Source: Chrysophaeum taylorii
Lineage: Eukaryota > Sar > Pelagophyceae > Pelagomonadales > Pelagomonadaceae
Assembly: GCA_029834535.1 (NCBI GenBank)
Contig: JAQMWT010000344.1
Location: forward strand, 434,001-498,000
Direction: 5' to 3'
Length of the DNA stretch: 64,000 nt
The translations under genes were made by a program, and so were the position numbers. The notes beneath the pieces were generated by a model that ran no database searches, was not told the origin of the DNA, and saw nothing but the letters and a program-made list of their open reading frames with translations. Below are positions 15,889-47,004 of the stretch, in pieces (within the stretch, counting starts at the first letter, position 1; the number at the start of each line of letters is the position of its first letter).

Positions 15889-16544
15889 TTTGGCAGTAAC
15901 GCCCATTCCCTCCCCACTTGCCTGCCTGCCACCTGATTTACCCTGATTGTTGCCCTGGTACTGACCTTGCAATTATTGGTGGGGTGTCATCTTGACACCC
16001 TCACCTCCGCTTCCACTGAACTGTAGTGGTTTTCTCAGATACCCGCCCCTCCTGGCCGGACCGGGGGGCCTCAACAACCCTTTCTCCCTACCCGAACCGC
16101 GGGTGAAACCACCACACGCCCGATCTCAGCGTAATACCTCACGCCATCACGAAATCGGACAATCAAGAAGACAGCAAGAAAGCAATACAAATGCCCGGTA
16201 CATTGGGTCCAGTAGAAGCGCAGGTGAAGGTGTCGAGATGACACCCCCCCCCATAAATGCAAGGTCAATACCAGGGCAACAATCAGGGTAAGTCAGGTGG
16301 CAGGCAGGCAAGTGGGAGGAAATGGGCATTACTGCCACAGAACCCAATGTTCCAGGCATTTTTATTGCTTTCTTGCTGTCTTCTTGCTATTACCCTCATT
16401 TTGATTGTCCGATTTTCGTGATGGCGTGAGTGTTACGCTGAGATCGGGCGTGTGGTGGTTTCACCCGCGGTTCGGGTTGGGAGAAAGGGTTGTTGAGGCC
16501 CCTGGTCCGGCCAAGAGGGGCGGGTGTCTGAGAAAACCACTACA
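15889..16544 (+). repeat. 5' LTR of the gypsy element, split by an inverted solo LTR
   Basis: 15889-16021 plus 16340-16544 together match the 3' LTR at 25612-25943 (332 bp) along its length. The terminal sequences are TGTGGCAG-like and CCACTACA. The missing middle is the inverted LTR at 16022-16339. Confidence 0.9.
16022..16339 (-). repeat. Inverted solo LTR of the same gypsy family, nested in the 5' LTR
   Basis: 318 bp starting TGTAGTGG and ending TGCCACA. Read on the minus strand, it matches the gypsy LTR from end to end. It is flanked on both sides by GAAC (16018-16021 and 16340-16343), a 4-bp target duplication, and the uninterrupted 3' LTR reads CTGAACCC across the same point. A later insertion of a family member followed by LTR-LTR recombination explains it. 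Confidence 0.9.
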
Positions 16545-16591
16545 GTGGTCTCAGAAACGGGAATCGATAGTCCAACTCCCGGACTATCGAT
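16545..16591 (+). promoter_or_regulatory. Gypsy primer-binding region with perfect 11-bp hairpin
   Basis: One base after the LTR end, TGGTCTCAGAAACGG (from 16546) has the TGG start expected of a primer-binding site for a tRNA 3' end; the tRNA is not identified. Immediately after it, 16563-16573 (ATCGATAGTCC) pairs perfectly with 16581-16591 around a 7-nt loop. Confidence 0.6.
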
Positions 16592-17013
16592 CTCCTGTTT
16601 TTCGGCGGCGAGTCGGTTCGTAACGGTCGAGTGAGTGCGAAGCCGACGCATTTGTGGGTGAAGATCCAGGGGATCACGGGTACCGCCGCGGGGTTCATTT
16701 TACGTGATTCGGATCGAACGGGGAGCGGAGTCACTACGACTCATTTGGGCAAACATCGTAAGACCTAACGAGGCTACGAAAGAGTAAGCCCTAACCTAGC
16801 TCGCGCGAGGCAGACCACCTCCCTGACGGCGAGCGACAGCACCGGGAAGGCCGTCCATAGTCTTCACGCGCAAGGAAAAAATTTCCGTAAGTCCAGGGCA
16901 CCGGTACAGCGCGCAGTCAGACGGCTGCCGGCAATTGTCGTCTGACGAAAAAGAATACAACATGCGAGTTGTGAGCGTCCGGATTAATCCTATTATCCGG
17001 GCAAAGCGCGGTC

Positions 17014-19302
17014 ATGGCAGAGAGGCCAATGACAGAACGACCGCAGTGGTTTCGGGACGCACAGGAGCGTCTGCAACGATTCAGTGCAGCGACTCCGTTC
17101 TCGTCTATTGGAAGAACACCGTTGAGTACGCCCTTTCCACGGCCGGAAGCCGAGGAAAGCGGCATCAGAAGAGAGGCAAGGTCATCGGACAGCCTCGACA
17201 ACCCCCCAAGCGTGATCATCCTTCCGGATCCACGCGCTGGCGAAGGGGGAGCTACGGTTGCGCCAGACGCAACTTCAAGACCGGGTGAGCCGACGTTCCC
17301 GTACGCACGACCCTACGAACGTGCGATGAATACTACGGAGCCATCTCGAGCGGAACCCGGACCGTTTACGGCGATGCGTGGACCAGAGGAGAGTGCACCT
17401 CCCAGGCCACCATCCGCGAATACGAGAGCGACAGATTTTCGCGTGGATGCCGACCCCGAGATTCTGCAGACCATCAACGAACGATTCGAGATGTACCAGT
17501 CGCAGATCGAGCAAGTCCTACGTGAACTTGAGCGCACCCGCCGCGACGCGCAACAACAACGCTCAGAAGTGGAGCGGCAGCGGATCGACAACGATCGACT
17601 TCGACGAATGGTGGAGGAATCCACGCGGGCGCATGCTCGAGAGGCACGGCCAACCTCTCCGGATGCTACGCGTGTTACGCCCGAAGAAGATGACGCTGTA
17701 TCGGCACTGACCGACGATCAGCCACCGCGAAGTCGACCGGAGCCTACCCCGCAGCATCATACTGACCCCGGTTCAGCACATCCTCGTAACGAAGAAGATA
17801 TGCTTCGGGTCAAGAAGGGAGCTGCTGGTATGACTCGTATCACGTTTTCGAATCTCAGTGGGCAAATTACGAAGGACCGAGAGGAGGTGAATGCGTGGTG
17901 GATGCAATTGCGGCGTATGATGGAAGGCAGGATTGACAAACCCTCAATAGCGATGAACGTGATCGGAGGCGAGTATCAACTCGCCCCTATGGAAGCTTAT
18001 CGCAAATGGGAAGCCGAACGGCCGCAGATGTGGAAACAATATAAGGAAGGAATCATCACATTAAAAGAGTTGCGCCAGCATGATGAGGACTGTCTGGATG
18101 CTATGCAAGAGGCGACGAAGCTTCCTTGTCCACCTCGGGCTACGGTTGAAGAGCTTGAACGTGAATGGTTCAATTTACGGCAAGGGAATTTGTCATTGAA
18201 TAAGTATATTGCGCGATGGGTGCAGAAATTCGGCCAGTGGCGAGCAATGTCAGGTCGCGATACTGATCCTGCTGCGTTCCGTTCGCACTTCATTGCTGGG
18301 CTCAATTCTGAGCGCTTGCGGACGAGCGTCGAACTTGCTCAGGCCTCACCTCATATGAAAGCATCTACTCTCACCCTCAACGATGTCATTCAATTGACCA
18401 TCCAGATTTCCAAGATTTTGGAAGCCAACCCTACTGCCAACATCGAAGAGGCGATTAAGAAGGAGAAGGGAAAGGAGCGCGCACCACGGATGAGGAGAGA
18501 GCAGCAGCAGCAGATGCAGCAGTGGCAGCCAGTACAACGGGTTGGTTATGTTACCGACTCGGGATTTGGAACCTGGCTACCACAGGGGATAGATACCAAT
18601 ACGCGTCAAGCAATTACGACGTGCCTCAGTTGCGGCCGGCATGGTAGTTTTAACCACGACAACGGTGTGTGTCCTGTGCCGGACAATCCCTCGAGGAAGA
18701 GGCGTGCTGCTCAGACGTTGACGAATGCGGGTTTTCCAGCAACGCCAGAGGGACAGGAGCAATACCGACGGGCGCTTTTAGCTGCAGCAGGACAGGCTTC
18801 GGTGACTCAGCTAGCGCCGCGCGTTGTACAACAGCCGCAGGTGGTCTACACAGCAGCACAGGTTCCAGGTGCAGGTCAACAGCAGTTGGTTGCAGGCACT
18901 CAACAGCGTTTGGTTGCAGGCACCCAACAGCAGGTGGTCCGAAGGCAGCCCGCAGTGCAGCGGACCGCTCAGACTTCGGTGCGCCTGGAGGATCTGACTA
19001 CGGCTCTCAACATGATGAATTTGCTTCGTCAAGCACAGCAGACGGCTCCAACGGTTAGAGGGCAACAGCCGCAGAGAGCAAACCCTAGCCAGCGCAATGA
19101 TGGTGTCGCCGCTCAGTGGCTTGAAGTGCTTGGCGAAGATCAGGATGACGCTAAGCGAGCGGACTACTGCACTGTGCAGTATTCTGAGCTCATGGAGGGC
19201 AACGTGTATGACGGTGACGATGACGATGTTGGAGGCGATGACGATAGCTTCTCTGCAGAAAGCTATTCCCCTGGTGACCCCATGGAACCTCCTTTTTTTT
19301 AG
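17014..19302 (+). CDS. Gag of the gypsy element
   Basis: 762-residue frame from an ATG at 17014. The N-terminal part is charged and includes a coiled coil around residues 155-205 ('QSQIEQVLRELERTRRDAQQ'). The central part (~270-480) has the 'EREWFNLRQGNLSLNKYIARW' type segment typical of retrotransposon gag/capsid. A zinc-knuckle-like Cys/His cluster follows ('CLSCGRHGSFNHDNGVC'). The C-terminus is Gln-rich and then acidic. As structural protein of the element it would form the particle and bind its RNA. No repair is needed for this frame; the element as a whole is dead. Confidence 0.8.
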   Translation: MAERPMTERPQWFRDAQERLQRFSAATPFSSIGRTPLSTPFPRPEAEESGIRREARSSDSLDNPPSVIILPDPRAGEGGATVAPDATSRPGEPTFPYARPYERAMNTTEPSRAEPGPFTAMRGPEESAPPRPPSANTRATDFRVDADPEILQTINERFEMYQSQIEQVLRELERTRRDAQQQRSEVERQRIDNDRLRRMVEESTRAHAREARPTSPDATRVTPEEDDAVSALTDDQPPRSRPEPTPQHHTDPGSAHPRNEEDMLRVKKGAAGMTRITFSNLSGQITKDREEVNAWWMQLRRMMEGRIDKPSIAMNVIGGEYQLAPMEAYRKWEAERPQMWKQYKEGIITLKELRQHDEDCLDAMQEATKLPCPPRATVEELEREWFNLRQGNLSLNKYIARWVQKFGQWRAMSGRDTDPAAFRSHFIAGLNSERLRTSVELAQASPHMKASTLTLNDVIQLTIQISKILEANPTANIEEAIKKEKGKERAPRMRREQQQQMQQWQPVQRVGYVTDSGFGTWLPQGIDTNTRQAITTCLSCGRHGSFNHDNGVCPVPDNPSRKRRAAQTLTNAGFPATPEGQEQYRRALLAAAGQASVTQLAPRVVQQPQVVYTAAQVPGAGQQQLVAGTQQRLVAGTQQQVVRRQPAVQRTAQTSVRLEDLTTALNMMNLLRQAQQTAPTVRGQQPQRANPSQRNDGVAAQWLEVLGEDQDDAKRADYCTVQYSELMEGNVYDGDDDDVGGDDDSFSAESYSPGDPMEPPFF

Positions 19303-19629
19303 TCATCACTGAAGATGCGTGGGTGGAGGAGCAGGAGCAAAGTACCGAAGTGACCGGAGTTGCATCTAGAGTTCCCTCGGAAGACGAAGATAATCGTGAC
19401 GGATTGGGATATACGATTGTTCGTGTGGGACAAGATACCTTGGTTGCTATGGATATAGTGCCACCGAGGGACGACTGCGCCGAGCGTTATGCCGCTCACC
19501 CTTCCATCTCTTCGGATTTCGATAGTTTCTACCCTCAGACTGCGTTGAATACCACTCAGGATCCCGACCATCGTGAAAATAAAGCCGTGAGGTACGATGG
19601 CACGAGATCCGCCTCTTTGACGTATGTGC

Positions 19630-20000
19630 CTGTGGCTGTCTCTTCGCTAGATGGTTCGAAATATTCCATCATCGCTGCCGGTTTGGATGGCATGGCTGAT
19701 TCCCCCTACATCGATCACCGCTTTTATCGCAAACTTGATCGTGACGGCAAAATCATCTATCATCAGCCACTCCCTACGATTCGTACTCTGAATGGGTCAG
19801 GAGGTTCGGGAGCTGCTATTCGAGAATGGGTTATTCTCCGGATCTCCTTGGTGCCATCGACATCCATGCTGCTCATGTTCTTCGTTGGTCAAACTAATGG
19901 GCAGTTACTATTGGGAGCACGAGAATTACGACTCTTGGGTGCGATTTTGGATTATGCGACAGAGAGAGCTATTTTCCGGCGTTCGGAAGTGACCATCGGA
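19630..20000 (+). other. Retropepsin-like region of the gypsy element
   Basis: In the frame after gag, 'AAGLDGMADSPYIDHRF' and, further on, 'QLLLGARELRLLGAILDY' have the layout of a retrotransposon aspartic protease (active-site loop, then the ILG-type motif). The active-site loop is divergent, so the call rests on position and layout. Confidence 0.55.
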
Positions 20001-20794
20001 GTTCTCAAGAATCGGACTTCCGCCTCGCCACAAGACCAGCATGGAACTGTCCTTTACAATGATGCATTCGATGCGACTCCGCAGGTAGTGCAGATGTTCC
20101 CGACAGCTAAGCTTGCTGTGCAATACGGAAATATCCAAACTTGGACGCCAGTTCGTAAACCGTGGAGTTATGACAGTCTGCTGCGCTCTATTCGTATCAG
20201 AGCGAGCCACCATCACGCTCATCCCGGTGCTCAGACTGCTGAAAAGGCGGAAGACCAACTTAAATGCCCTGCAGGCGAGGAAGATATCATCTTTCATTTC
20301 GCCTACGTGACGAGTACTCGATTTCTTCTTCCAAGCCAACCGTACTTCTTGGAGATGGAGTGCGATGTGCCGCTGGAAAAGGGTCAAGTATTCCGACCTC
20401 ATCGGTCACTCCTCCCAGATCTCCGCCTCGTACCTGGCTCCTATTCATCGTATTGCTCCGACGAGCCCAACGAAGTTCATGTGGCTGTGGAGCACATTGG
20501 TGACGAACCCATTGGTATCGACCCCGAAGTCCCGGTGGTCGAAGGCGAGATCATGCCGCATGAAGGATGTGTCAACATGCAGCTAGAAACCTCTGATGAC
20601 GTGTGTCATGCAACTCTTACGGCTGCTGTTGACGAGGATGAAGTCAAGGAGGATGTCTTGAGTGACAGACCTCCTCCTGAGCCACCTCCAGATGAAGAAG
20701 TGAAAAAAACACCAGAAATGAAGATGGAGGCGACCGCTAAGGAGCTGCTATCTAAGAACGCCTCCTTGGTTTGGATACCATCACCTACACCTTT

Positions 20795-21640
20795 GTCGTC
20801 GTCTACTTTGCTGGCGCTGGAGGATCAACGTTGGGTATCCGACGATGCAGTGAGCTATATGGCAGTTCGTTTCGCATTGTCCTGGCTTTGGATGCTTGTC
20901 CTCAGGCCCGAGCCACCTTTGAGCTCAATTTTCCGAAGATTCCACATGTTTCGCATGAGTTAGGGAAATCTCATCGTCGTACATACGACTTGGTGTTGCC
21001 GTATTTACATTCAGATTTTTGGAAGCATTCTTATTTTCACGCAAGTCCGCCGTGTATCTATGGGTCGACTGCCAATTTGCACTACAGGGACGCACGCAAG
21101 GGCGCTACTATTACTTCCTGGGTCCTGCGTCATTTCCGCAACGCACCTTATGTAATTGGACGATGGACGCTCGAGCAGGAACCATCAGTGATCCCTTTTG
21201 TGCATCACCAATTTTATGTGCCGCGCATTGTCGACTTCTATAGTATCACACCAGAATTGCTGTGCTCGCGCACGCGCCTACTTGCTTGCAATGTTCGCTT
21301 GGAACTGCCATTATTATCGCGTGTACCATCGAATTTACGGGACCGTTTTGGGCCAGCGTTGGGATTTACAGGTGGTCACCCGCTCATTATAGTGAACAGT
21401 TTCTCATCAACGCGCCCGGCTATCGGCCCTGCCTTCACAGTGGCGCGCAATAAGCTCCACCTAGGACCTCATTTCTCGAACACCCGTCCACTCACGTTGC
21501 AGATGCACCAGGAAATTATGACCGTTCCTGCTACGTGGCAATGGGGTGAGAAAGTTTCAGAGACAGCAGCTATGAAGATGCTTGGCAGTATAGTGCCACC
21601 CGCGACTATGACGCGGATCGCGCTAGCAGTGCACAATTCG
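20795..21640 (+). other. Cytosine-C5 DNA methyltransferase domain inside the gypsy pol region
   Basis: Within one open frame (20771-22678) that continues into the reverse transcriptase, about 280 residues show the ordered motifs of the C5-methyltransferase family (PF00145 type). Motif I is 'YFAGAGGSTLGI' and motif II 'LALDACPQARATFELNFP'. Motif IV is 'ASPPCIYGS', with the catalytic Cys codon at 21053-21055. A motif VI-like 'WTLEQEPSV' and motif VIII-like 'CSRTRLLACN' follow. Motifs IX/X come last: 'LTLQMHQEIMTVPATW' and 'MLGSIVPPATMTRIALAV'. The glutamine/asparagine that usually precedes 'VPP' is not obvious, and the target-recognition region is short. Its place between protease and reverse transcriptase means it would have been made as part of the pol polyprotein. 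Retrotransposon-borne cytosine methyltransferases are known from Symbiodinium and Klebsormidium. Confidence 0.85.
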
Positions 21641-22119
21641 TTTGACCCTTCGCTTCGAAATTTGGGTAAGTTGCGGAATATTGCGACGACTACGATAGCC
21701 CAACCCGATCACCATTTTCTACGGTTCTCACCTTTTGCTGTAGAGTCGCGCATTCCAACGCTCGACCCTGCCACTCGAAGAGTATCATGGATTTCGCCCG
21801 ATGAACTCTATTCTCCTGCGAGTCCTGCACCATCAGCTGCTGCCTCCACCACCCCGCCACCACCTTCGGTTAAATCGCCTGGGACGGCTCAATCTTTTGC
21901 AGGGGGCACCGTCGCCACTGCTGTTATGCAGAGCAACCAAGCCGGCAACCAGCCCTCCGCAACTGCTGATGAAGAAGGCACCGCGAAGGAGAGACCTGCG
22001 TATTTCAATAAGTACGACGTTCCGTGGGCGGACGCGCCTCACGACGAACATGGTCAACCTTTACCGGTGATGCCTCCTCATTTAGCGGATCAAGAGAGCA
22101 TGCAGGTCATCCCTCCGAC

Positions 22120-23600
22120 CGTCGCGCAGGTCGAAGAGGTGATGACTGAATTGGGTATTACAGAGCATCCTGCTTTAGATGATGACGAGAGGCTGATGAT
22201 GAAGCATTTAATCTCGTATTCGTGGGCATTTTTTGATGACGTGATGAGACCTGTTGATTCACCTGAAGTGACGCTCCGGTTCAAAGAAGAGAACCCGACT
22301 CCCGTCAAACTCTCGCCATATCGGTTGTCGAAAGAAAAGATTGAATGCTTGCGGGTGCAGATTGAAGCATGGACCCGAGACGGAGTTATTCGTCCCGCGA
22401 ATTCTCCATGGGGTTTCCCTATTTTGATGTTGCCCAAGAAAGGTGCTGAGCCTGGCTCTTTCAATGCTTACAGAGCAGCTGTCGACCTACGGCGCCTCAA
22501 TGCATTGCTCAAGGATGATAGCTGGCCGAATGTGAGCATGGCTGTCGCGTTGATGTTTCTCATCGACAAGTTCTGTCGTTCCAGTTTGGATATTCGTTGG
22601 GGCTATCACAATTTACGATTGTCGCTAGATGCACAAGATGTGGTCACCTTCACTAGTCGTCTGGGAGCGTACAGCTAAATGCGTCTACCATTGGAAGTCA
22701 GAACAGCCGGAAGTTTGTTTTGCTAGCATTTGAACACTGACTTGTCGAAATGGCTATATCGTGATCTCGTGGCATATATCGACGATATTCTCGCTGGTCA
22801 CGCAGATACAAAGAATCACTTGCAGTGCCTTGTGCAAGTTATTCCCCAGCTCGCCTTGAAAGGGTACAGCGCCGAGATCAAGAAGATTCATTTTATGCAA
22901 GAAGCCATTGAGTTTTTGGGTCATTTATGTACCCCGAACGGACTTCTTCCATCACCAAGGTCTTTAGAAGCCATCAGACACATGCCAATTCCTGGCACTT
23001 TGTCGGATGCTGACCCTAAGAAGCAAGTGCGATCTTTCCTTGGAATGGGGAGTTTTTGCCGGCGTTATGTAAGGAATTTTGCAAAAGTTGCAGAGCCATT
23101 AAGACAACTGACGTTGCCGGACGCGAAATTCAAGTGGACGAAAGAGTGTCAGGAAGCTTGGGATGCCATCATCGAGGCTATTGTCACTTCGAAGGGCGTC
23201 TACCATCCTGATTACTCGTTGCCTTTTTACATTCGAACTGATGCTTCCGCGCGTGGGTTGGGTGCTTACCTATTTCGAAAGGTACCACTCGTTGATGACG
23301 ATGGAAGAGAAAGAATCGAAGAGAGAGTTATCGAGTACTGGAGCCAAACCGTGCCTAAGTCGATGAGGAAGTATGATCCTCGGCGCTTGAAACTCCTCGC
23401 AGTACTCTCCGCTCTTGAAAATTTCCGATTTTATATCGAAGGTCATCAGACGAAATTAGAGACGGATCATCGTAATTTAACGTTTCTTCGGGATTCGAAT
23501 CATACGTCTGGACATTTGGCACGATGGGCTTTGCGGCTTGCTGCGTTCGACCGGGAGCTCGGATACAAGCCTGGAAGCTCCCCTGGCATGCGTATCCCGG
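22120..23600 (+). other. Reverse transcriptase and RNase H of the gypsy element
   Basis: RT signature blocks: 'DGVIRPANSPWGFPILMLPKK', 'AAVDLRRLNALLKDD', 'YIDDILAGHADTKNH' and 'FLGHLCTPNGLLPSP', followed by the connection domain and the RNase H start 'FYIRTDASARGLGAYL' and 'LETDHRNLTFL'. The region is interrupted. Confidence 0.9.
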
Positions 23601-24079
23601 ATTGTCTGTCGCGCAGCACTATCGACAAATTGATCGAGAATGACGAAGACGGGGAACCGATCAATGAAGCTTTTTTGATTTTCCAAGAAATCCCCACCGA
23701 TGTGCCTGGCACAGCTTGCTTCACCTTCTCTTCGGTGACGATGCCTATGCTGACGGACAGCGGACCCACCGCAGCTATGGTAGCAGTTAGTACGCGACAG
23801 AACGTACAACCGCCTCAATTCTCGTACGAGTCTGAGCCAGTTGACTCCGTCGAAAGTCTCCCTTTTGCGGATAAAGCGGAGGATGAGATCACTCTCGATG
23901 AGATAGCGAAAGAACAAGCTGAGGATGACACATGCAAGCGCATCAGACGAAATCTCGACTCTGAACAGAAAGATCAAGACGAGCAGTCATCCGTACCATA
24001 TGAGGTTGATGACAACGTGTTGTATGAGGTCGATGATTCAGATTCTTAACGTCTTATTGTGGTCCCTCAGTCTATGCGA

Positions 24080-25576
24080 AAGCGTGTAATCGCCATGCAT
24101 CACGGAGGATTATTCGGAGGCCATGTAGGACGAGACTCCACAGCGAATCAAATCTTGGAACGGTATTGGTGGCCAAACGTCTCATCATCAGTTAATGAAT
24201 TCGTCAATGCCTGCATTGTTCGCCAGAATATTCGATCCACCGCCTAGACGTCATGGCTTGCTCTGTCAACCGAATCGCGTCGGAGATTGCTATGTCCTAG
24301 GTATGGATCTGATTGGACCTCTGCGAGGCGCTGACCTGTACACGTACATACTCGCAATGTACAATGCAGCGTCGCATTTATTGAAATTGGCTCTGATCAA
24401 CACCAAGCATGATTTTCAATTTTGAACGCGCTTGTGGACAACATTTTACTTGAGGGATGTCTCCCACGGTGCATAGTCACAGATAATGGAAATGAGTTCG
24501 CGATTAGGTTATTTCGCACGTTTGTTCGTCAATTCAACGTACGTTATCGTGCTACCCTTCCGTATCACCTTCAGAGTAATCACACTGAACATATCAACCG
24601 GTTTATCAAAGCCTTCTTGCGAGCTGCGATCGATGAACAGCGTCAGCCAGAGTGGTTGAATTTCATCCCATATGTGGCATTCATGTACAATAGGATGTAC
24701 ATTCCGGGAACGAAGATTTCACCTTTCATGATGCGTACTGGCAAGCAGCCCCTGTTACCACCCGATTACAATCTCTTGAGTGAACAGCGTGATCTACCGC
24801 AATCACGTCATCAGATTTTGGTGGACTTTAAGAACAAGTTTGAATTTTATAGTCAACTCGTTACACGCGCTCACCAGAAAGCACAGGAGAGTCAAAAACT
24901 CAACTATGATGCCCACCAAATTGACATCCAGGTTTTCCCAGGTGATTATGTTCTGCGTTTCGTACCTAAGACACGCCACAAGCTACGGCCCATTTGGCGC
25001 GGACCTTACATAGTTACCAAAAAGATCTCTCCCGTCGTTTACGAAACTCAGGACGTCAATGACGATGATGCTGAATCGGCTGTAGTATCTGTACAACAGA
25101 TTGTGGCTTTGAAAGTGCCAACCATAGACACTTCTTCAGCCCCTCTGCATTTACCTTCAGACCGCGACCGTTTCAAGCATGGTAAGTTCGTGATTTTCAG
25201 GGTGAAAGGACGATCCAACGCGTGGAAGAAGCGTATCTATGTTGCCGAAGTCTACGAAGAATATGACCACGACAATGATACAGTTGCGCTTCACTACTAT
25301 ACCGATTTGGGACGGCGCGATGATCCTCGTGTTTTTGATCCTACTCAGCCTCTGGCTGATCGACGATTAAGACCCGAATACAAAGACCCGGACGGAGGTA
25401 GCTTCACACGCTTACGACCAAACATGGAGGGCTGTCAACCCTGTGTGACTGATTTTCGCCCGGATGAAATCGATGTCCTCGTCAGTAACTTCGGCCTCCA
25501 CAGCAACAAAGATCCTGCTGATGTAGCTGACCGAGCTTATCGTACCATTCGTGAGCGGGACCTTCGTCACCCTTGA
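24080..25576 (+). other. Integrase and C-terminal extension of the gypsy element
   Basis: An HHCC zinc-binding segment ('HHGGLFGGHVGRDSTANQIL') is followed by catalytic-core blocks ('VTDNGNEFAIRLFRTFVRQF', 'HLQSNHTEHINRFIKAFL'). A GPY-type segment ('KLRPIWRGPYIVTKK') comes next, then an unusual C-terminal domain of about 150 residues that is not an obvious chromodomain. The region is interrupted. Confidence 0.88.
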
Positions 25577-25611
25577 AGTCGAGGACGACTTCATCTCAAG
25601 TAGGGGGCTCC

Positions 25612-25943
25612 TGTGGCAGTAACGCCCATTCCTCCCACTTGCCTGCCTGCCACCTGACTTACCCTGATTGTTGCTCTGGTACCGACCTTGCAATTATGGG
25701 GGGGGTGTCACCTTGACATCCTCACCTGTACTTCACTGAACCCAATGTACCAGGCATTTGTATTGCTTTCTTGCTGTCTTCTTGCTATTACCCTCATTTG
25801 AATATCCGAAGTTCGTGATGGCGTGAGTGTTCACGCTGATATCGGGCGTGTGGTGGTTTCACCCGCAGTTCGGGTTGGGAGAAGGGGGTGTTGAGGTCTC
25901 TGGCCTGGCCAAGAGGGGCGGGTGTCTGAGAAAAACCACTACA
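25612..25943 (+). repeat. 3' LTR of the gypsy element
   Basis: 332 bp, TGTGGCAG...CCACTACA, preceded by a short G-rich tract (AGTAGGGGGCTCC) that may be the polypurine tract. It matches the two parts of the 5' LTR and the inverted solo LTR. Confidence 0.9.
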
Positions 25944-38160: not shown

Positions 38161-39900
38161 TCAATCATGTAGAGACTTGTCATCAGAGGCATGGTGCATA
38201 CCGAGTAGAGAACGAAAAGTGGAGAACTCAGCAGCAAGTGGCTTTGTAAAACCATCAGCCACGTTTAGCTTGCCGGGAACATGATGGACTCGAATTTTCT
38301 GTGTGTGGTGAGATGTACTCACGGATCTTAAACCATCTGGTCGACAGTGCTTTGGAGCGAGAGGATCCATCTGGGTTATTAGAGGTGTGAACAGCAGCAG
38401 CATTGTCAGACAAGAGAGGTAGGCTTCTGATGAAGCGCATATCTTCAGCAATTGGGTTGTCATTGTCATCGAAGTCAACAGGATCAGCGGTGTTCTCACC
38501 ATTAACATTGTTGACGTAGAAGGTGGGGTTGACGACAACGGAGAGTTCCAACAGCAGCTTGCGTAGCCAAACAGCTTCATCAGCACAAATACTGAGGGCA
38601 ATCAACTCAGCTTCGTGAGTTGAGCAGGAGACAATCGGTTGAAGCTTGCTTTTCCAACAAATAAGGCAGTTGAAAAGATAGAAGACAAACCCGGTGGTAG
38701 ATTTCCTATCTTCCTGTGCTAAGGAAGGGGCATTGTCAGCGTCGACCATGGCTATTAAGGGATCAAACTGTCCAGTGGATACATCCTGCGGTTGGTAGTC
38801 GACCACAGTAGAGAGATCGATTCTATTAGCGGAAACAGTGCGAAGGTGAGCTTCAATAGCATTACCTATAGGATGGAACCAGATGCGAAGTGAGCGGTTT
38901 TCCGGCTTCCTCACGTAGCGGAGCAGGTGTTCTAGCATTTGGACATGAACGTACGTGGGTGCATGCATACCACGCGAACATCTGCCCAAGGCCTGCGAGA
39001 AGTCAGGTCTGCAGGCCACTTGCACGAACACCAGCCTGCCAAGGAGGGTGGCAAAGTGCGGGTTGATGTACAACTCTGTTTCAGAGCTGGGAGTGCCATC
39101 TTTATACTTGAAGGACGAGGACATAGGATTTTTAAGCGGAGTTAGTTGCTGCAAGACAAGATGATCAGCGAAGAGTTCATCAAGCTTGGCTTGCACATCC
39201 AGAGAAATGGATCCATCAGATGTGCGACACACGCGCATGCCTAGAAGAGTATGGACAAGTTCAAACTGCTCTACAGCATACCGTTTGTGGAGGGCATCCT
39301 GTAACTCAGTACGAAAAGTGTCATCATTGGACACAATAACAATGTCGTCTACAGACAGACTGCATACGACGAACTTAGGATGTGCAGATACTCGAGCATA
39401 TAGGCAAGAGTCCGAATGCAGGCGCTTGTAGCCAAGGCTACGGAAGAAGCCTTCTATCTCTTTGTTCCAAAGAGATGGTGATTGCCGAAGTCCATAAAGT
39501 GACTTCAGCAGTTTCGGTATGCGTCGGCCCTTGTAGTTAGCGTCATCGGGGTCGATAAGCTTGATGCCGTCTGGTAACTGAGCGTAGACGTTGGCATCAA
39601 TGTCAGACTGAACGAAGGCGTTCGGGGCGTCTGCGTGGTAGAGAGGCAATTGCTTGTATGCTGCAATCGCCAGTAGTACCCGGATTGCGGTCATTGTGGC
39701 CATTGGGCTGAAGGTGCCAAAGAAATCGGCGCCAAGGGAGGCTAGGAAGCCACGTAGCACGATGCGAGCCTTGTGCTTAACGTATTTGCCTGCAGAGTCC
39801 GTTTTAATCTTCAGCACCATCCTGCTGTCAATAGGACGAGAAACACCGTCGGGAAATGAAAGCTTGAAGCAGCCGAAGCGGACAATGTCGTGGAGTTCCT
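38161..39900 (-). other. Reverse transcriptase and RNase H of the copia element
   Basis: Copia RT blocks: 'FSPMATMTAIRVLLAIAAYK', 'DAPNAFVQSDIDANVY', 'LLKSLYGLRQSPSLWNKEI', 'SLSVDDIVIVSND'. RNase H: 'KSTTGFVFYLFNCLICWKSK' and 'STHEAELIALSICADEAVWL'. The upstream RT part continues toward 40000. Confidence 0.93.
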
Positions 39901-40034
39901 TGGCGGTGGCCTAGAGGTAGGCGTGCCTGTCTTCAGGCAACATACCGTGGAGCCATTTGAGTTTATATTTATCGATGGAAACGTCCGCTTCTTGGACCTT
40001 ATATTCGTCAGGACCAACAGTGGCTGGTGAACTA

Positions 40035-40055
40035 TAGTCTAGCGACGTTGCGGTC
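40035..40055 (-). repeat. Copia internal 21-bp motif, copy C (between integrase and RT)
   Basis: Diverged core TAGTCTAGCGAC with the same CGGTC end; encodes TATSLDY on the element strand. Confidence 0.8.
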
Positions 40056-40460
40056 GAGGCAGTGTGCGCGACTTCGGGATAAGCGGAAACAGCGTCAGTA
40101 GGAGGGGTAAATGAAGCAGATTCCAGTTGAATATGGATAGTAGGGTCGGCATGTAAGATCTGAGTGATATACTCTGTAGAGACCAGAAGGTATTCCTCCA
40201 AGTCAGACAGAGATGCAGAATTAGCGCCAAACTCGGAAGAGTTGTGATCGATAGAGCTGGTCGGCGCCAGATAGGTAAGTGCATACTGTAATGAAGAGAT
40301 GCCAAAGGCAGCAGCGTTCTCAGTTAACGCAGCTAAAAGAGGCTGAGGAATGGGGCGCGTAGGTGAACCATCAGCAGTTAGAAAGGTTGCGGCTGGGATG
40401 CTGGATGCGCACTTAGCGTGGGCGAAGTAACCATCGACGTGAGGGTAACGGGCTAGTAAG

Positions 40461-42200
40461 TCAGTGCGCAACGGGAGAAGAAGACGAGCTAACAACGCAT
40501 GTTCCCCCTCTGAGCAGATAGCAGACCAGAGGATACCTACCACCATTGATATGTAGGGCGGAGAGGGCGGGAGACTTGAACGTAAGAAAGTGGTGGCGAA
40601 GATCCCAGCGGAAATCGGCGAGTTTGCCACCAGCGGCTTTGTAAGCACCTATAGTAGACGCTTGCAGCCGGTCTAGGATATTTTTCATGGACGTTGCCTT
40701 GCGGTTGTTAGGTTGTTTGGAACCTGGGACAAGAATGAGGTCATCTTGTGTAAAAAGGTCTTTGTAAGAAGGAAGCAAGGGCGGCGGTGGCATAGAGCCA
40801 GAATCGTCGACGGGAGCGTCGGAAGGGGGAGGAGAAGCAGGAGCAGGGGACGAAGAAGGAGCGGAGGGAGGTGGAGAGTGCCCCCTCTGAGGATGAGGTG
40901 TCCGTGTCCCCCTCTGAATGAAATGGTCTTGGATAGCAGCGTGGGGATAGAGCGAGAAAGGCGCGGGAGGAGCGTGAGGCGGAGGAGCAAGTTCAGGATC
41001 AGGAGTAGGATGCTGGAGCATGTAGAGGAATTGCAGCTTGGACGAAACACGGATTTGTCCGATTTCAGGGTTGAGGACGACGTCGGCAATATGGTCAACA
41101 CGTGGGGAGACGAGCGGGTTTCGCGCGTTGGCGCAACATAAATATAAGTATTTGCGGCGGCACGGTTCCCATTTGTGGTGCTCGTGGGGTTCCAATAGAA
41201 GGTAGCATTCAGCCCCGAAGATCTTGAGCATGTCGTGCTAGGGAGTGCTCAGTTGATTGTAGAGTAGCTGTTGCGGACTCAGGATAGCATGGTGAATGCG
41301 CTCGAGCGTGGCGTTCGGGAGAAGGTTGTAGCTTTGGATGGTGTGCGTCACCGCCCAGGGAAACATGATGGCTGGTTCCACGATCTTGGAGCCACGATAA
41401 TGAGCATTAAGGAGAGAGCGAAGGCGAGTTGAGGAGGCGGAGGCGATGAAGCCGATGGCTGACTCAACTTCAAAGTTAACGTGGTGCATGTACGGCGGGA
41501 AAGCGATGAGGTGAATGCCCTTATCGACGCGGTACGGGGAGGTAATATGCTGGCTAAAGTAGGGCTTGAAGGCATCGGAGTAAAGGGTGCGCAGGTGCAC
41601 GTTGAGTTGTGTACGACAAAAGTCATACACAAAGTCCAGAGCTTGAGTGAACTCCGTGGCGTTGGTGGTGCGTGTAAAGTACACCAAGAGAAACTTCGAG
41701 ATAAGTTCTTTGAACACAATGATATGAGTGAAGCCTCCCCATTCTGACGGAATTGTCACATAGCCGCCGTCGCACGCCCAGACTTCGCCGGCTTTGTGAG
41801 TTTGCTCAAAAGAGTGCTTGGTCGGATTGAAGTGCTTGTGCGGATGGCGTTTGTTGTGCACGATGCAGTCGGTGCATAAGTCGCGATACGGTAGATCTGA
41901 GGCAGAGAAGCCAGGGCGAGCCAGTACGTTGGGGGCCTTGGCTGCAACGTTGTCGGGGCAGTGGTGCACCCGGTGGAAGCGATTGGCACGTTCTTTGGCG
42001 TTGAGGTATTCAGCAGATCCGTGTGCGAAGGATTTGCGAGGAATGGGATGAGCGGGGATATGACGTTTGCGCCGAACATCGAACTTGAGTTCGGTGTCCA
42101 AGGCAGGAGGAGGCGGTGCGTCGTCATCCTGGTGCGCAGCAGGGTCACTTGGAGGTGCATCCTCATCATCACGAGTAACGAGAATATCTTCGTAGGACGA
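40461..42200 (-). other. Integrase of the copia element
   Basis: Zinc-binding HHCC segment ('FHRVHHCPDN', 'LCTDCIVHNKRHPHKHF'), catalytic core with the three acidic positions ('VWACDGGYV', 'TLYSDAFKPYF', 'HHVNFEVESAIGF'), then the copia-type C-terminal 'LKIFGAECYLLLEPHEHHKW' segment and a Pro-rich linker toward RT. Confidence 0.88.
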
Positions 42201-42207
42201 AGACATA

Positions 42208-42228
42208 TAGTTTAACGACATTTCGGTC
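42208..42228 (-). repeat. Copia internal 21-bp motif, copy B (before integrase)
   Basis: Same core TAGTTTAACGAC and CGGTC end; encodes TEMSLNY on the element strand. Confidence 0.85.
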
Positions 42229-42229
42229 A

Positions 42230-44150
42230 AGCAGTTGCTGGAGATAGAAGTCATGAAGGCTTGTGCCAAAGACAAGGTATCTGTGCTGCACGTGGTGGAG
42301 GCCGGATCAAAGGTCATGAAGGTGGATACATAGGATTTCTTCATCACGGCAGCAGCATGTTGGAAGGTAGGGTCCAACATAAGAGATTTAATATCGGCAA
42401 CGAGGAGCGAAAGGTGCTTGTACAGTGTGCTGTACGTACCGGCAGGCAGAGCATTGCTGAGCATGTCGCAGCAAAGGTCGTGGCGAAGAGACAAGAGGAA
42501 AGATTCCTGTTGTTTGGTGTGGTTGTTAGCACGAATCAACTCCGGTCGAGTGGGATAGCGTAGTTTCCCGTTGCGAGGGTCGAGTAAGATAATGTTTGCA
42601 TATCCTCGGACGGTGGGCAATGGAGCAAGCATGGAGTGGATTTTAGAGCCGAGTTTGCGGTCACTTCCACGAAGATACCCTATATAGCGACTATGGGATA
42701 AGTGGTGATCTTCCAGAGCAAAATGAGAATCCTTGTAGTCGAAAGAATTGTCGGTGGCCTTGTAGGTAAGGCAGCCAGGCATCACAAGAGAGCATCTGGA
42801 CAAGAGCTTTTGTATGGCAGTGCCATAGGCGGCAGCGGAGCCAACTTGAGGAAGGGCTTGGATGATCCACAAGTAACCCATAAACGGCTCCAAATATATA
42901 GATCTGTCTCTGTCGCGGGGGACGTTGGAGGCAGTAAACGTATACGTGCTTCCAAAAGCGTCAATGGAAGCATGATATTTGGTGGCGGCGTTTTCTATGG
43001 TGAGGTTGCCGTCAGTGTGGTGACCGCCGGTTAGGAAGTAGGTGTTTTGCGATGTTGATGAGGCTGTAAGTAGTAACCTATGTGACGGTTGGTCAGTTTC
43101 GAAAACGGTTATGTAATAGGACACAGGAGTGGGTGAGTTAGTGTGCAATCTGGCAAACACGTTATAGAGGATAGTGAAGGCCTTGACACGCAATGGATTA
43201 GTTGCATGAGGCAGTGGTTGCATGGAGGAGCGTTTGAAACACAGCTGATGATAAGTACACTCGGATTGAACAGAGTGCGTGCGTTGCTCGTCAGCCTGTT
43301 GTGAGTGAAGGCGAAGAAATAACAAATTGAGTGTTTCAAGGTCAGTCATAGTAAGCTGAACAGAACCTGTGCGAGAGTAAGGTGCAAAAGTTTTAGGAAC
43401 GGGGACATATGGAGGATCGGGGAACACGCAGATCCAACCTTTGGTGATATCTTTGGATAGCCAAAGTCGTTTAGGAATGGCTTGTATGTCATCCACGATC
43501 TTAAAGAAGGGGCGTGGGTGCTGGATAGGCCATGAAAGTATGTTGATTGGTCCAGTAGAATACATGCGTGCGATGCAGATCCATCTTTCCCTAGATTGGT
43601 AGTCGCCACATAGGTAGGTCGGGAACCTGTCAACAACATCAACACAGTAATCGAGTGTGGAATAGATGAGATTGGCCACAGTTATGTGGTCTTGATGACG
43701 GTACTTGTGGGGTGGTGTCATCTCAGCCAGTAGTACCAAGGGTTGGAGAAGTTTGATGACAGACAGCATGCTGTCGAACAGAGAGTCGTCGAGCAGGCTG
43801 TGTAAGTCTTCGGTCTTATGCTGCTTTAGTAGATTCCTGTTAGTGCAAGGAGGAGTTATCTCAATAATATCGCAATAAAATTTGCGCCTTTCCTCTGGTG
43901 AGATTTGGTGAAGGTGGTTGATAAAGGCGGGTAAAGATTCAAATAACAATACTGTAGGAAAACGGTGGCGTAACATGCGCACAAGCGTATCATCAGACTC
44001 AACAACAACTTTACATTGATATTTAAGCCTAGGTCATTAGTGGCTTGAGACAGGAACGCTGGGGTTGACAAACCAGAACAAAGTAACATGACAGAGGGTT
44101 TGCGAAGATTGGGCTCTTGTGAGAGAAACACTGGGCGAGAAAGCATTCAT
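42230..44150 (-). other. Unrecognised ~600-residue region between protease and integrase of the copia element
   Basis: Long coding-like sequence with globular composition ('TEDLHSLLDDSLFDSMLSVI', 'DLETLNLLFLRLHSQQADEQ', 'ADIKSLMLDPTFQHAAAVMK'). I recognise no domain. Standard copia elements go from protease directly to integrase. It ends at a copy of the repeated 21-bp motif (42208-42228), just before the integrase. Confidence 0.6.
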
Positions 44151-44499
44151 GTTAATGGTGGAGTGTTTTGCTGGACGAATTTGTTCTGTTTCCGAAGATT
44201 AAGAACCAAAGGGCGAATCCACGGGCGATCTGGTAAAACTCTCTTGAGGAGATAGTTATAATATGCCAGTAGATCCCTGTTTTCGTGGTATCGCTTGAGC
44301 GGAAATGCGAGGGAGCGCAGTTCAAGTTGCTTGTCGCGAGCGATGTTGTAGGTGAGACAGGGGAGAGCAGGCAAGTTAGATGTTACGTAATGTATGGGAA
44401 TACGAACATCTTTGTCTATGCGGCTCGTGACAGCGCTGAGCTTTGGCTCAGATTCGTCTGGTTCCACTCGAGCTTGCTCAGTATAGCGAGATGTCGGAT

Positions 44500-44800
44500 G
44501 TGCACTGGCCTTAGACGTAGAGCGAAGTCAATCTTCACGTAACCGATTTGTGGATGATCTGGTAGTGGGACAACTATGTTACGTGTTAACATCATATGGG
44601 AGGCACGTTGTTGTCCAGTGGCAGTTTGTATAATGATCGGCGCGTATTTGGGATCCAGTGGAATAATATGATTTGGAATCGCATAGTCGTAGCTGGACAT
44701 TAACGATATGGTAGCACAAGAGTCAAAATATAAAAAGGAACAATGTTGGGGAACACTGTTTACCTTCATGTATTTCGTTAGAAGTGCATTTTCCGAATGC
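44500..44800 (-). other. Aspartic-protease-like region of the copia element
   Basis: 'FLYFDSCATISLMSSYDYAI' has the layout of the retropepsin active-site loop (hydrophobic-D-S-x-A-T), followed about 20 residues on by an 'IIIQTATGQQ' strand as in copia proteases. Confidence 0.65.
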
Positions 44801-45181
44801 GGGCGATTAGTGGAGAGACTAGCCGTGAAGAAGTTACCCAGAAATAATAGATTAGTTGGAATGATAATCGGTTGAACAGGTGGTGATGGTTCGTCAGCTT
44901 CATCAGCCATGCCGTACTTCTCATCAAATGATGATAGCGAGGTCTTATCGACGTCCCTTGTGGTTTCGGCTTGTTGTGGTTGGTTAATGGCTGATTGGAC
45001 CTGTGAAGATAACGAGGACAGTAACGCTGGTGGTAACGTCGAGATGGCGGAAGCAGTAAAGAAGTTAGGCACTATATCAGAGGGGTTACCCTGTGTGTTG
45101 GAGACATTCTTGGTATCTGTAGTAGGAGGAGTTGCCTTTGGGGTGGGAGCAGTAGCAACAGTATGATGTTGTGGCTCCACG

Positions 45182-45202
45182 TAGTTTAACGACTTTTCGG
45201 TC
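45182..45202 (-). repeat. Copia internal 21-bp motif, copy A (gag/protease side)
   Basis: TAGTTTAACGAC followed by TTTTCGGTC on the plus strand; on the element strand it encodes TEKSLNY. Confidence 0.85.
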
Positions 45203-47004
45203 GAGGATAGATGAACGTCTACATCATAAATGATGTCTTCTGCGAACATGAGTTGATCGTTTAGACGAAGTAAGTCACCATTGTCCTCAGTAGATGTGGT
45301 TGATAGAATATCGGCGGATTGCAACAGAGTCTCAAATAACTTGGTGATGTTCTGTTGTAGCTGAGCCGTGATATCATTATCTGTCACATGCTTCGTAAGT
45401 TCACTACACTGCTCTTGCAGTGTATTTATGGTGTGCTTCGTTCGGTCCAATAATTTCATATTAGATCGAGAGGACCTGTCGAAAGTGCGAGGGTAAATTG
45501 GACGGTCATGGGACTGTCCAGCAGTTTTCTTGGTGACATAAGAATCACCAGAACGATAATACGATAAGTCGCTGCGAGAGAAAGGCTGGCGAGCATCGTT
45601 AGAGTTACGCAAGCGTCTAGCGTTAAACGTGGAGGATGTTCCAGGTTGAGAAGAAGTAATGGACGCAAGAGCGTTTGCAGTTTGAGTCAGACTTTTGTCT
45701 GATAGATCCAGCGTGTTTGTCAGTAGTAATTTCGGTTTTGGTTGTGGTGTCAATCCTTCAACGTAAGGTTGCCAAGAAACAGGGCGTTCTAAGCGTCTTT
45801 TGTTCGACCCATTTGATACTACATTATATAAGTCTAATGCGTATTCTAAGATATAGCTAGGGTTGGTAGGGTGACACAATCGTTCAGCGTCTGGCACAGG
45901 CCGAGATGAAGATCGAGTTTCATACATATAACACCAATCTACCCAACCACGATCGTAACGATTGTTGCTGGTATTATCGGCATAATGCCGATGTATCTCT
46001 TCATAAATTTTTCTACAAAGAGTACCAAAGTCGAATTGAAGGTCAGTCTCTTCCTGGTTAAGTTGGTAAGAGATTTGCCTAAATGCTAGGACAGCTTCAA
46101 TAAAGACATGGACATACCAGTTAGGATTATAAACAACAGAGTTAAACTGCTGTTTCAGGTAGGACACATCAGTAGTCGTAACAGACTCGTAGTGACTAAA
46201 GGCAATGAGCATAATGGCGCGAGCCTTGTTGGGTAAATAACTTTTGTTATACACCTCATTGATGGCGGGCCAGGCCGCAAGTGCTGGTTTTCCAACACTT
46301 TCAAGATTGAAGTAAGTATGCAAGAATGTAGCATACGTGTTCTGATAAGTGTGCCAGTCAGCAGCAGTTAACGAAAACATGGTAACAGGGGCACGAACAC
46401 GGGTGTCAAAAGCTAATGCTTTCGGGTGCGCGCGATTTAAGATTCGTTCCTCTTCTAAGAAACGAGCATTGATTTCAGGGCGTAATGCCTTGACTTCATT
46501 GTCGTAACAGACAGTAGCTAGCTGAGCTACTTCTGCGTCAGGTAAGTTGGGGAAAGCTTCATTGGTGAAGTGCCATTCCTGATACTCAGGGGGCAATTCA
46601 TCAACAGCTAAATGGAGATCAGCAGCCCTATCGGTCTTCCATTCCAGGAAAACGCGATCGAGAATTTGATTCCGGAGGATCTCGTAGTCCTTGCATGACC
46701 GAGTGTATGCTTCGTACGAGTCGTACTCGAGGAAGGCATCGGCATGACTGGACCGTAATAATTGTTTAATATGTTTGATTTGCAAGGATACCTTGCGGGT
46801 TTGAAGCTGAAATCGATTTCCTTCGTTGAGAAACTCAACTACAGGAGCTTCGAGCTTCAGTATGTCCGCACCTGTGATCGCCTTGGGTGCGGCTCGTGCT
46901 GCGTGTTCTGCCATAGCAGTTGACGGGGAACCTGTGGGTTCAGTCACGCAGTTGACACTGTCTAGACATTCTAAGGGGGTCTGTCTATCGGTGTCTATGT
47001 ACAC
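45190..47004 (-). other. Gag region of the copia element
   Basis: A ~600-residue N-terminal region of the polyprotein rich in aromatic and charged residues ('FLEYDSYEAYTRSCKDYEIL', 'MFSLTAADWHTYQNTYATFL'). It has the capsid-like helical character of copia gag, followed by a Ser/Thr-rich linker. No CCHC zinc knuckle was found by eye. Confidence 0.7.

Follow-up and report, generated by a model that had tools for sequence, protein, structure and literature searches.

A 64,000-nucleotide stretch of the Chrysophaeum taylorii genome (contig JAQMWT010000344.1, positions 434,001 to 498,000; hereafter the window) contains a Ty3/Gypsy long terminal repeat (LTR) retrotransposon with a C5-cytosine DNA methyltransferase (DNMT) domain between its protease and its reverse transcriptase (RT). 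The window locus is one decayed copy of a large family (family A), and the DNMT is a family-wide trait at this position. We think it probable, on balance, that Pol of this Gypsy family carries a C5 enzyme that presumably methylates the element's complementary DNA (cDNA), the mark perhaps being maintained by the host DNMT5. Capture of such an enzyme by a retrotransposon looks paradoxical, cytosine methylation usually silencing these elements.

A methyltransferase domain in Gypsy Pol

The stop-to-stop frame at 20756–22678 (forward strand, 640 amino acids (aa)) carries the DNMT followed by Gypsy RT. The initial annotation of the window had read ordered C5 motifs I, II, IV, VIII and X here, and all are present: FAGAGG (I), LALDACPQARATFE (II), ASPPC (IV), SRTR (VIII) and SIVPPATM (X), with LEQE occupying the place of motif VI. 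The numbering I–X follows the canonical C5-methyltransferase set; FxGAGG is cofactor-binding. PF00145 matches the frame significantly in two stretches (E 2.2e-9, 37.6 bits, curated cut-off 22) and, in alignment A1, each of the 12 members, of which the window is one (best 1.5e-10). A phage DNA methyltransferase profile (PHROG) also matches family A (1.6e-11), as it does families B (4.5e-12) and D (1.4e-6) described below; matches to the NCBIfam dcm profile lie far under its cut-off. Of 42 aligned rows, which represent 40 copies because two are duplicates, 41 conserve the catalytic Cys and 39 the motif VI Glu. Searching solved structures with profile A4, an alignment of families A and D, gave two weak matches at E up to 1, chains 8yf3 (0.0048) and 3g7u (0.67), both named 'Cytosine-specific methyltransferase' and presumably bacterial; no DNMT3-named chain occurs among them. 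Neither the window frame nor A1, used as query, found a relative among the best 8,000 protein candidates of each search.

The genome searched comprises 70.8 Mb in 697 contigs; repeat counts are lower bounds throughout, and some matches are pieces of one copy. The DNMT segment of family A has at least 146 matches, the 30 best of which, the window copy among them, were fetched as loci. RT lies downstream of the DNMT in 30/30, so that the domain order predicted from the window recurs in other copies. A protease-like part is present in 23 (1.5 kb upstream examined), and the other seven carry a gag segment there. Four of these seven (L016, L022, L023 and L029) have no protease, their gag being fused in frame, at a common junction, to the segment that immediately precedes the DNMT; a protease-less derivative has therefore multiplied with its DNMT segment retained. 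DNMT and RT occupy one open frame on contigs C345 (1812 aa), C311 (2115 aa) and C225 (2129 aa), the last of which (L039) encodes gag, protease, DNMT and RT in that single frame, while a 1815-aa frame in L040 spans gag, protease, DNMT and the beginning of RT. Domain order thus upholds the earlier reading of a Gypsy element with its DNMT between protease and RT. Neither result that the initial annotation had set as refuting it, lack of a significant PF00145 match or lack of other copies with the domain in that place, was obtained.

A search with the family A RT revealed a second Gypsy group (family D, 58–60% identity), in which the DNMT sits at the same place. One copy, on contig C5, has DNMT and RT within a 3067-aa frame, and PF00145 matches the one copy scanned (5e-5, 23.3 bits, cut-off 22). 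The DNMT domains of A and D are 41% identical and retain FxGAGG, ASPPC, EQE, RxRLL and VPPxTM. Two overlapping searches with different family D members each gave at least 135 matches at 80% or above. Among 48 RT matches at 58–62%, 28 have a family D DNMT upstream (median gap 856 bases), and C452 brings this to 29; the count rests on the best candidates only and does not speak to the remaining 19. Four of those 19, at 61–62% (contigs C681, C169, C58 and C95), near which no DNMT match was found among the matches listed, may represent a DNMT-free or more divergent sister group.

Outside this genome, the A4 search found a sole relative, metagenomic protein P0001 (E 2.3e-29; 33% identity, with 66% of the query covered), which shares a WLPxTY junction before motif I; the lineage therefore exists elsewhere. 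A Pfam scan of P0001 gave no match, and scans of viral contigs gave no relative. Residues 1–95 of P0001 form an upstream stretch without Pfam match that then enters the DNMT through the like junction.

Judged from substitution patterns, the DNMT is under purifying selection, about as firm as that on RT and stronger than that on protease or gag. Ratios of nonsynonymous to synonymous substitution (dN/dS) were obtained by the Nei–Gojobori method, as medians of pairs in the main-family and subfamily comparisons. When main-family copies are paired with those of the 83% subfamily, dN/dS is 0.069 for the DNMT (155 pairs), beside 0.051 and 0.041 for two RT segments, 0.106 for protease and 0.32 for gag (median 70 codons, 9 pairs). 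Pairs inside the main family, on which decay after insertion has more influence, give 0.217 for the DNMT, 0.331 and 0.424 for RT, 0.36 for protease and 0.361 for gag. The family D DNMT gives 0.13 in a close pair and 0.055 and 0.052 in two deep pairs, the deep values being approximate because synonymous sites are near saturation. Low dN/dS, together with the conserved catalytic Cys and motif VI Glu, argues that the DNMT is held about as firmly as RT.

Layout of the window element and Copia relatives

The Gypsy element extends from about 15889 to 25943 on the forward strand, in the order gag–protease–DNMT–RT–RNase H–integrase (Table 1), and its protease–RT–RNase H–integrase order and direct terminal LTRs place it in Ty3/Gypsy. 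Its 5′ LTR opens with TT, not TG. With the nested insert excluded, its 5′ and 3′ LTRs show 25 differences over 326 aligned bases (7.7%), so the insertion is not recent. A 4-bp target duplication (GAAC) flanks the nested solo LTR, and no matching duplication was found at the outer flanks of the element. The gag, protease and DNMT frames are mutually out of register (overlaps at 19278–19302 and 20756–20963), and RT and integrase are broken; with its frames out of register and a stop inside RT, the window copy is dead. The frame that had been described as running directly into Gypsy RT does so, but RT is then cut by the stop.

Several parts are recognised more by position and motif than by profile. 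The gag frame contains a zinc-knuckle-like CX2CX7HX4C, read as a motif. The protease-like region gave no match in a Pfam scan and is assigned by position and motif reading: its triad is DGM (LDGMA), not DTG or DSG, with identical letters in L039 and L040. RVT_1 on the second RT piece stays under its cut-off (1.9e-5, 24.9 bits; cut-off 29.6). In L040, which is flanked on both sides by LTR matches (the second truncated where the locus ends), integrase lies downstream of RT, with rve at 1.1e-7 (32.5 bits, cut-off 32.6) and Integrase_p58_C at 27.8 bits (cut-off 27). A long extension follows that C-terminal domain (L040:9069–9656); it could be a reader-type module. Apart from Integrase_p58_C, this segment matched nothing in Pfam, and solved structures gave no significant match to it.

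Table 1. Retrotransposon features in the window, with the evidence for each
Feature	Position	Strand	Evidence
5′ LTR, split by inverted solo LTR	15889..16544	+	BLAST of 3′ LTR against window
Nested same-family solo LTR, 318 bp, TG..CA ends	16022..16339	-	BLAST and inverted repeats
gag frame	16975..19302	+	Retrotrans_gag 0.0092, 16.6 bits, below cut-off 24.1
Protease-like region, LLLGARELRLLG	19572..20084	+	tblastn of L040 segment
C5 cytosine methyltransferase domain, motifs I–X in canonical order	20780..21712	+	PF00145, alignments A1 and A4
RT, interrupted by stop at 22676–22678 and frame change	22115..23179	+	tblastn segments rtA, rtB
RNase H, in the frame after the DNMT/RT frame	23210..23548	+	PF17917 1.6e-23
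Integrase part and C-terminal extension	24413..25576	+	rve 0.095 in window copy
Putative purine-rich tract preceding 3′ LTR, AAGTAGGGGGCTCC	25598..25611	+	Read from sequence
3′ LTR, 332 bp, TG..CA ends	25612..25943	+	BLAST
Copia element, family C, DNMT-like	38255..47004	-	RVT_2 3.6e-39; rve 0.0047, below cut-off
Family C, gag/protease	47004-44416	-	
Family C, DNMT-like domain and integrase	44033-41238	-	
Family C, RT/RNase H	39910-38255	-	

The genome also contains Copia elements with a DNMT or DNMT-like domain. A genome search with PF00145, in which the best 123 of 474 candidates were scored, gave 57 matches, 55 in Copia family B and two in host genes; no copy of family A or D is among those listed. 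Six of the eight PF00145 loci fetched (L003–L008) belong to family B, with scores of 46.3 bits for L003 and 38.6 for L004, and L051, of the same family, scores 34. Motif reading of L050 and L051 gives the order DGGAS protease, DNMT, integrase and Copia RT; the protease and integrase rest on that reading, a profile scan of L051 having returned PF00145 only. The RT at L050:997–2742 (the same copy as L004) aligns over 532 columns at 32% identity with the RVT_2-positive Copia RT of the window. Family B, which has at least 151 genome matches, therefore combines Copia RT and PF00145 in one element. Across 20 aligned rows (16 copies), its motif IV Cys is present in 20 and VENV in 18, and its DNMT dN/dS is 0.15 and 0.14 in deeper pairs and 0.25 in closer ones.

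Copia family C (at least 97 matches), which its RT relates to family B, is represented in the window itself, by a frame-broken copy with a DNMT-like domain downstream of the protease region. This domain carries PPC, AEM and RERW at places corresponding to C5 motifs. PF00145 is absent in 6/6 family C copies, one of which has a UPF0259 match at 0.078; the PHROG DNA-methyltransferase profile reaches E 0.015 on one copy (L054), and a profile alignment of families C and B is collinear and not significant (P 0.093, HH probability 0.6%). We accordingly label the domain, from its motifs, as DNMT-like only. Where dS exceeds 0.05, pairs give it a dN/dS of 0.21 and 0.14; two closer pairs give 0.49. Other profile comparisons, made with shallow alignments, gave P 0.4 for A against B, and 0.05, 0.13 and 0.33 for A, B and C, respectively, against host DNMT2. 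Elsewhere in the window, from 48120, a short-repeat run encodes (LFIY)n at a frame start.

Proposed role and alternatives

The two PF00145 matches in host genes are a DNMT2, a transfer RNA (tRNA) enzyme, recognised by a solved-structure match to 1g55 (3.9e-39), and a DNMT5, matched to 7r76 (3.5e-130), whose chain is titled 'DNA repair protein Rad8' and which we take to be Cryptococcus DNMT5, a maintenance enzyme. No DNMT1, DNMT3 or DNMT6 occurs among the PF00145 matches listed, a search that intron-split genes could escape; DNMT6 has been reported in pelagophytes (PMC9998398, in the part of the text available). The genome has five methyl-CpG-binding-domain (MBD) matches (on C93, C36, C145 and, twice, C498), a domain that the available text of PMC5890265 calls unusual outside plants and animals. 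There are 84 chlorophyll-binding matches, so the host is photosynthetic. A light-harvesting protein adjoins the DNMT2 gene, and its best solved matches, named VCPI, plastid light-harvesting, peridinin-complex and FCP, fit a complex red-type plastid.

That the DNMT is under selection suggests that these retrotransposons may chemically mark DNA while copying themselves. The element protease would free the DNMT, or the DNMT would stay joined to RT; it would be packaged with RT in the particle and would methylate double-stranded cDNA before or at integration. With a DNMT5 in the host and neither DNMT1 nor DNMT3 recognised there, a de novo mark written by the element could then be copied on by DNMT5. 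The element might benefit because its incoming DNA is disguised, or because the insertion site is quiet and tolerated. Methylation of cDNA by a travelling enzyme was proposed in 2018 for SymbioDIRS-Dnmt3 (PMC5890265). A broader version, which we regard as rather doubtful, makes retrotransposons the sole source of de novo cytosine methyltransferase, acquired in at least two captures, with host DNMT5 copying the marks and MBD proteins reading them; the methylome would then be an element-written, host-maintained system.

Several observations weigh against the proposed role or limit the evidence for it. Motif VI reads EQE, not ENV, and the Gln that usually follows the Cys of motif IV is missing. 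The sole structure prediction, by AlphaFold2 on the window sequence alone, has a predicted local distance difference test score (pLDDT) of 32, too low to speak for or against the fold. In the deep family D pairs, synonymous proportions are 0.66–0.72 against nonsynonymous proportions of 0.09–0.11. Pairs involving degraded 69–76% copies give a DNMT dN/dS of 0.309 and RT values of 0.153 and 0.535, high and scattered as expected because those copies are decaying. CpG observed/expected is 1.03–1.08 in the Gypsy element, compared with 1.30–1.39 in neighbouring stretches, and 0.93–1.04 in the Copia elements; because Copia behaves alike, the mild depletion is not DNMT-specific, within a comparison set made up of DNMT or DNMT-like elements and their neighbours. 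Among copies, transitions at CpG amount to 5.7%, against 4.7% for other C-to-T changes (non-independent pairs). CpG decay is thus a weak sign of methylation. A similarly weak trace is what methylation restricted to the life cycle, or to sites other than CpG, would leave, and so would a complete lack of DNA methylation.

The altered motifs IV and VI and the small C-to-T excess at CpG speak for a domain kept for a role other than DNA methylation, whether it methylates RNA (the tRNA primer or the genomic RNA) or serves within Pol as a nucleic-acid-binding or structural part. RNA methylation was indeed raised by the 2018 authors for SymbioLINE-Dnmt (in the available text of PMC5890265). We consider such a role unlikely, given that the catalytic Cys, the motif VI Glu and FxGAGG are nearly invariant and are retained between families only 41% identical, and that a purely structural role would not require catalytic residues. 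Somewhat less probable again is that the main target is the host genome, global or regional methylation slowing the element or altering the host epigenome. A host-level effect was speculated upon for Symbiodinium (PMC5890265), and here it would accord with the very high number of matched stretches (at least 146 for A, 135 in each overlapping list for D, 151 for B and 97 for C) and with no host DNMT1 or DNMT3 being seen among the PF00145 matches listed; against it, the high CpG observed/expected of neighbouring stretches is unlike that of a genome losing CpG to methylation.

Two further alternatives concern origin. That a fragment of a bacterial or host gene landed by chance in a single copy might be suspected from the broken state of the window copy, yet this reading has practically no probability left: the DNMT precedes RT in every fetched copy, occupies the same place in the sister family and shows purifying selection, and we rejected it on these grounds. 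There is a modest chance that the capture was not independent, the elements descending from an old or transferred Gypsy–DNMT lineage in common with KnitGypsy-Dnmt3 of Klebsormidium nitens. The superfamily and the location in Pol are the same in that element (PMC5890265), and metagenomic P0001 has a like junction. However, the KnitGypsy enzyme is reported as DNMT3-class, whereas the weak structural matches of A4 include no DNMT3-named chain, and KnitGypsy is reported with DIRS-like repeats where the present element has ordinary terminal LTRs. We continue to favour an enzyme that acts on the element's own cDNA. The purpose of a retrotransposon DNMT becomes testable here, given the long open frames, the strong selection and matched stretches in the hundreds: elements of different age and family can be set side by side, and maintenance by DNMT5 offers a specific route by which a mark, once written, could persist.

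Comparison with known systems

The precedents named in the initial annotation, Symbiodinium and Klebsormidium, are correct (PMC5890265; this and the other papers compared here are represented by the parts of their text available). KnitGypsy-Dnmt3 likewise belongs to the LTR Gypsy elements and has a C5 DNMT within its Pol reading frame; it is present in several copies, and its DNMT is under purifying selection (Ka/Ks < 0.2). It differs in its DNMT3-class enzyme and DIRS-like repeat arrangement (PMC5890265), whereas the present Gypsy has plain terminal LTRs, no DNMT3 likeness recognisable among solved structures and more than 100 matched stretches. With SymbioDIRS-Dnmt3 and SymbioLINE-Dnmt, Symbiodinium is another alga whose retrotransposons carry DNMT copies by the hundred. 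That host has DNMT2 and DNMT5 and lacks DNMT1, a set like that of the PF00145 matches listed here, and it also has DNMT6; these are DIRS and LINE elements, not integrase-bearing LTR elements, and their DNMTs are classed as DNMT3 and orphan (PMC5890265). The SymbioDIRS enzyme performed de novo CG methylation in yeast, while no methylation by the KnitGypsy or the SymbioLINE enzyme was seen there, a result that the authors call inconclusive; the same paper credits two earlier studies with noting rare DNMT–RT domain links (PMC5890265).

Other reports come close without coinciding. DAM- and DCM-encoding Ty3/Gypsy and DIRS elements have been mentioned in stramenopiles and other algae (PMC6338049); that statement lumps adenine and cytosine enzymes and both clades, and in the available text names no stramenopile Gypsy with a C5 enzyme, but it would cover such an element in a stramenopile host and weakens any claim that none was known. 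PMC12344493 mentions DNMT3 in 'LTR Copia and DIRS' and cites for this the 2018 paper, where the LTR element described is Gypsy; the text available names Copia and describes no Copia element. Sola1-1_Ec32 of Ectocarpus is likewise an algal transposon with a DNA methyltransferase, but is a ParB-methyltransferase DNA transposon with a predicted N4C/N6A enzyme in a separate gene (PMC12477816). Work on diatoms and pelagophytes places DNMT5 in photosynthetic stramenopiles, as here, and reports that loss of DNMT5 in Phaeodactylum raises Copia element expression; no DNMT-bearing retrotransposon is described in the part available (PMC9998398). Within the available portions of the open-licence literature, we found neither a Copia element with a C5 DNMT nor the present Gypsy lineage described. 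DNMT-bearing retrotransposons as such were already known (PMC5890265); set beside those, the lineage, the ordinary LTRs, the lack of recognisable DNMT3 likeness and the Copia elements look new, and this genome adds DNMT-bearing LTR elements of both Gypsy and Copia type.

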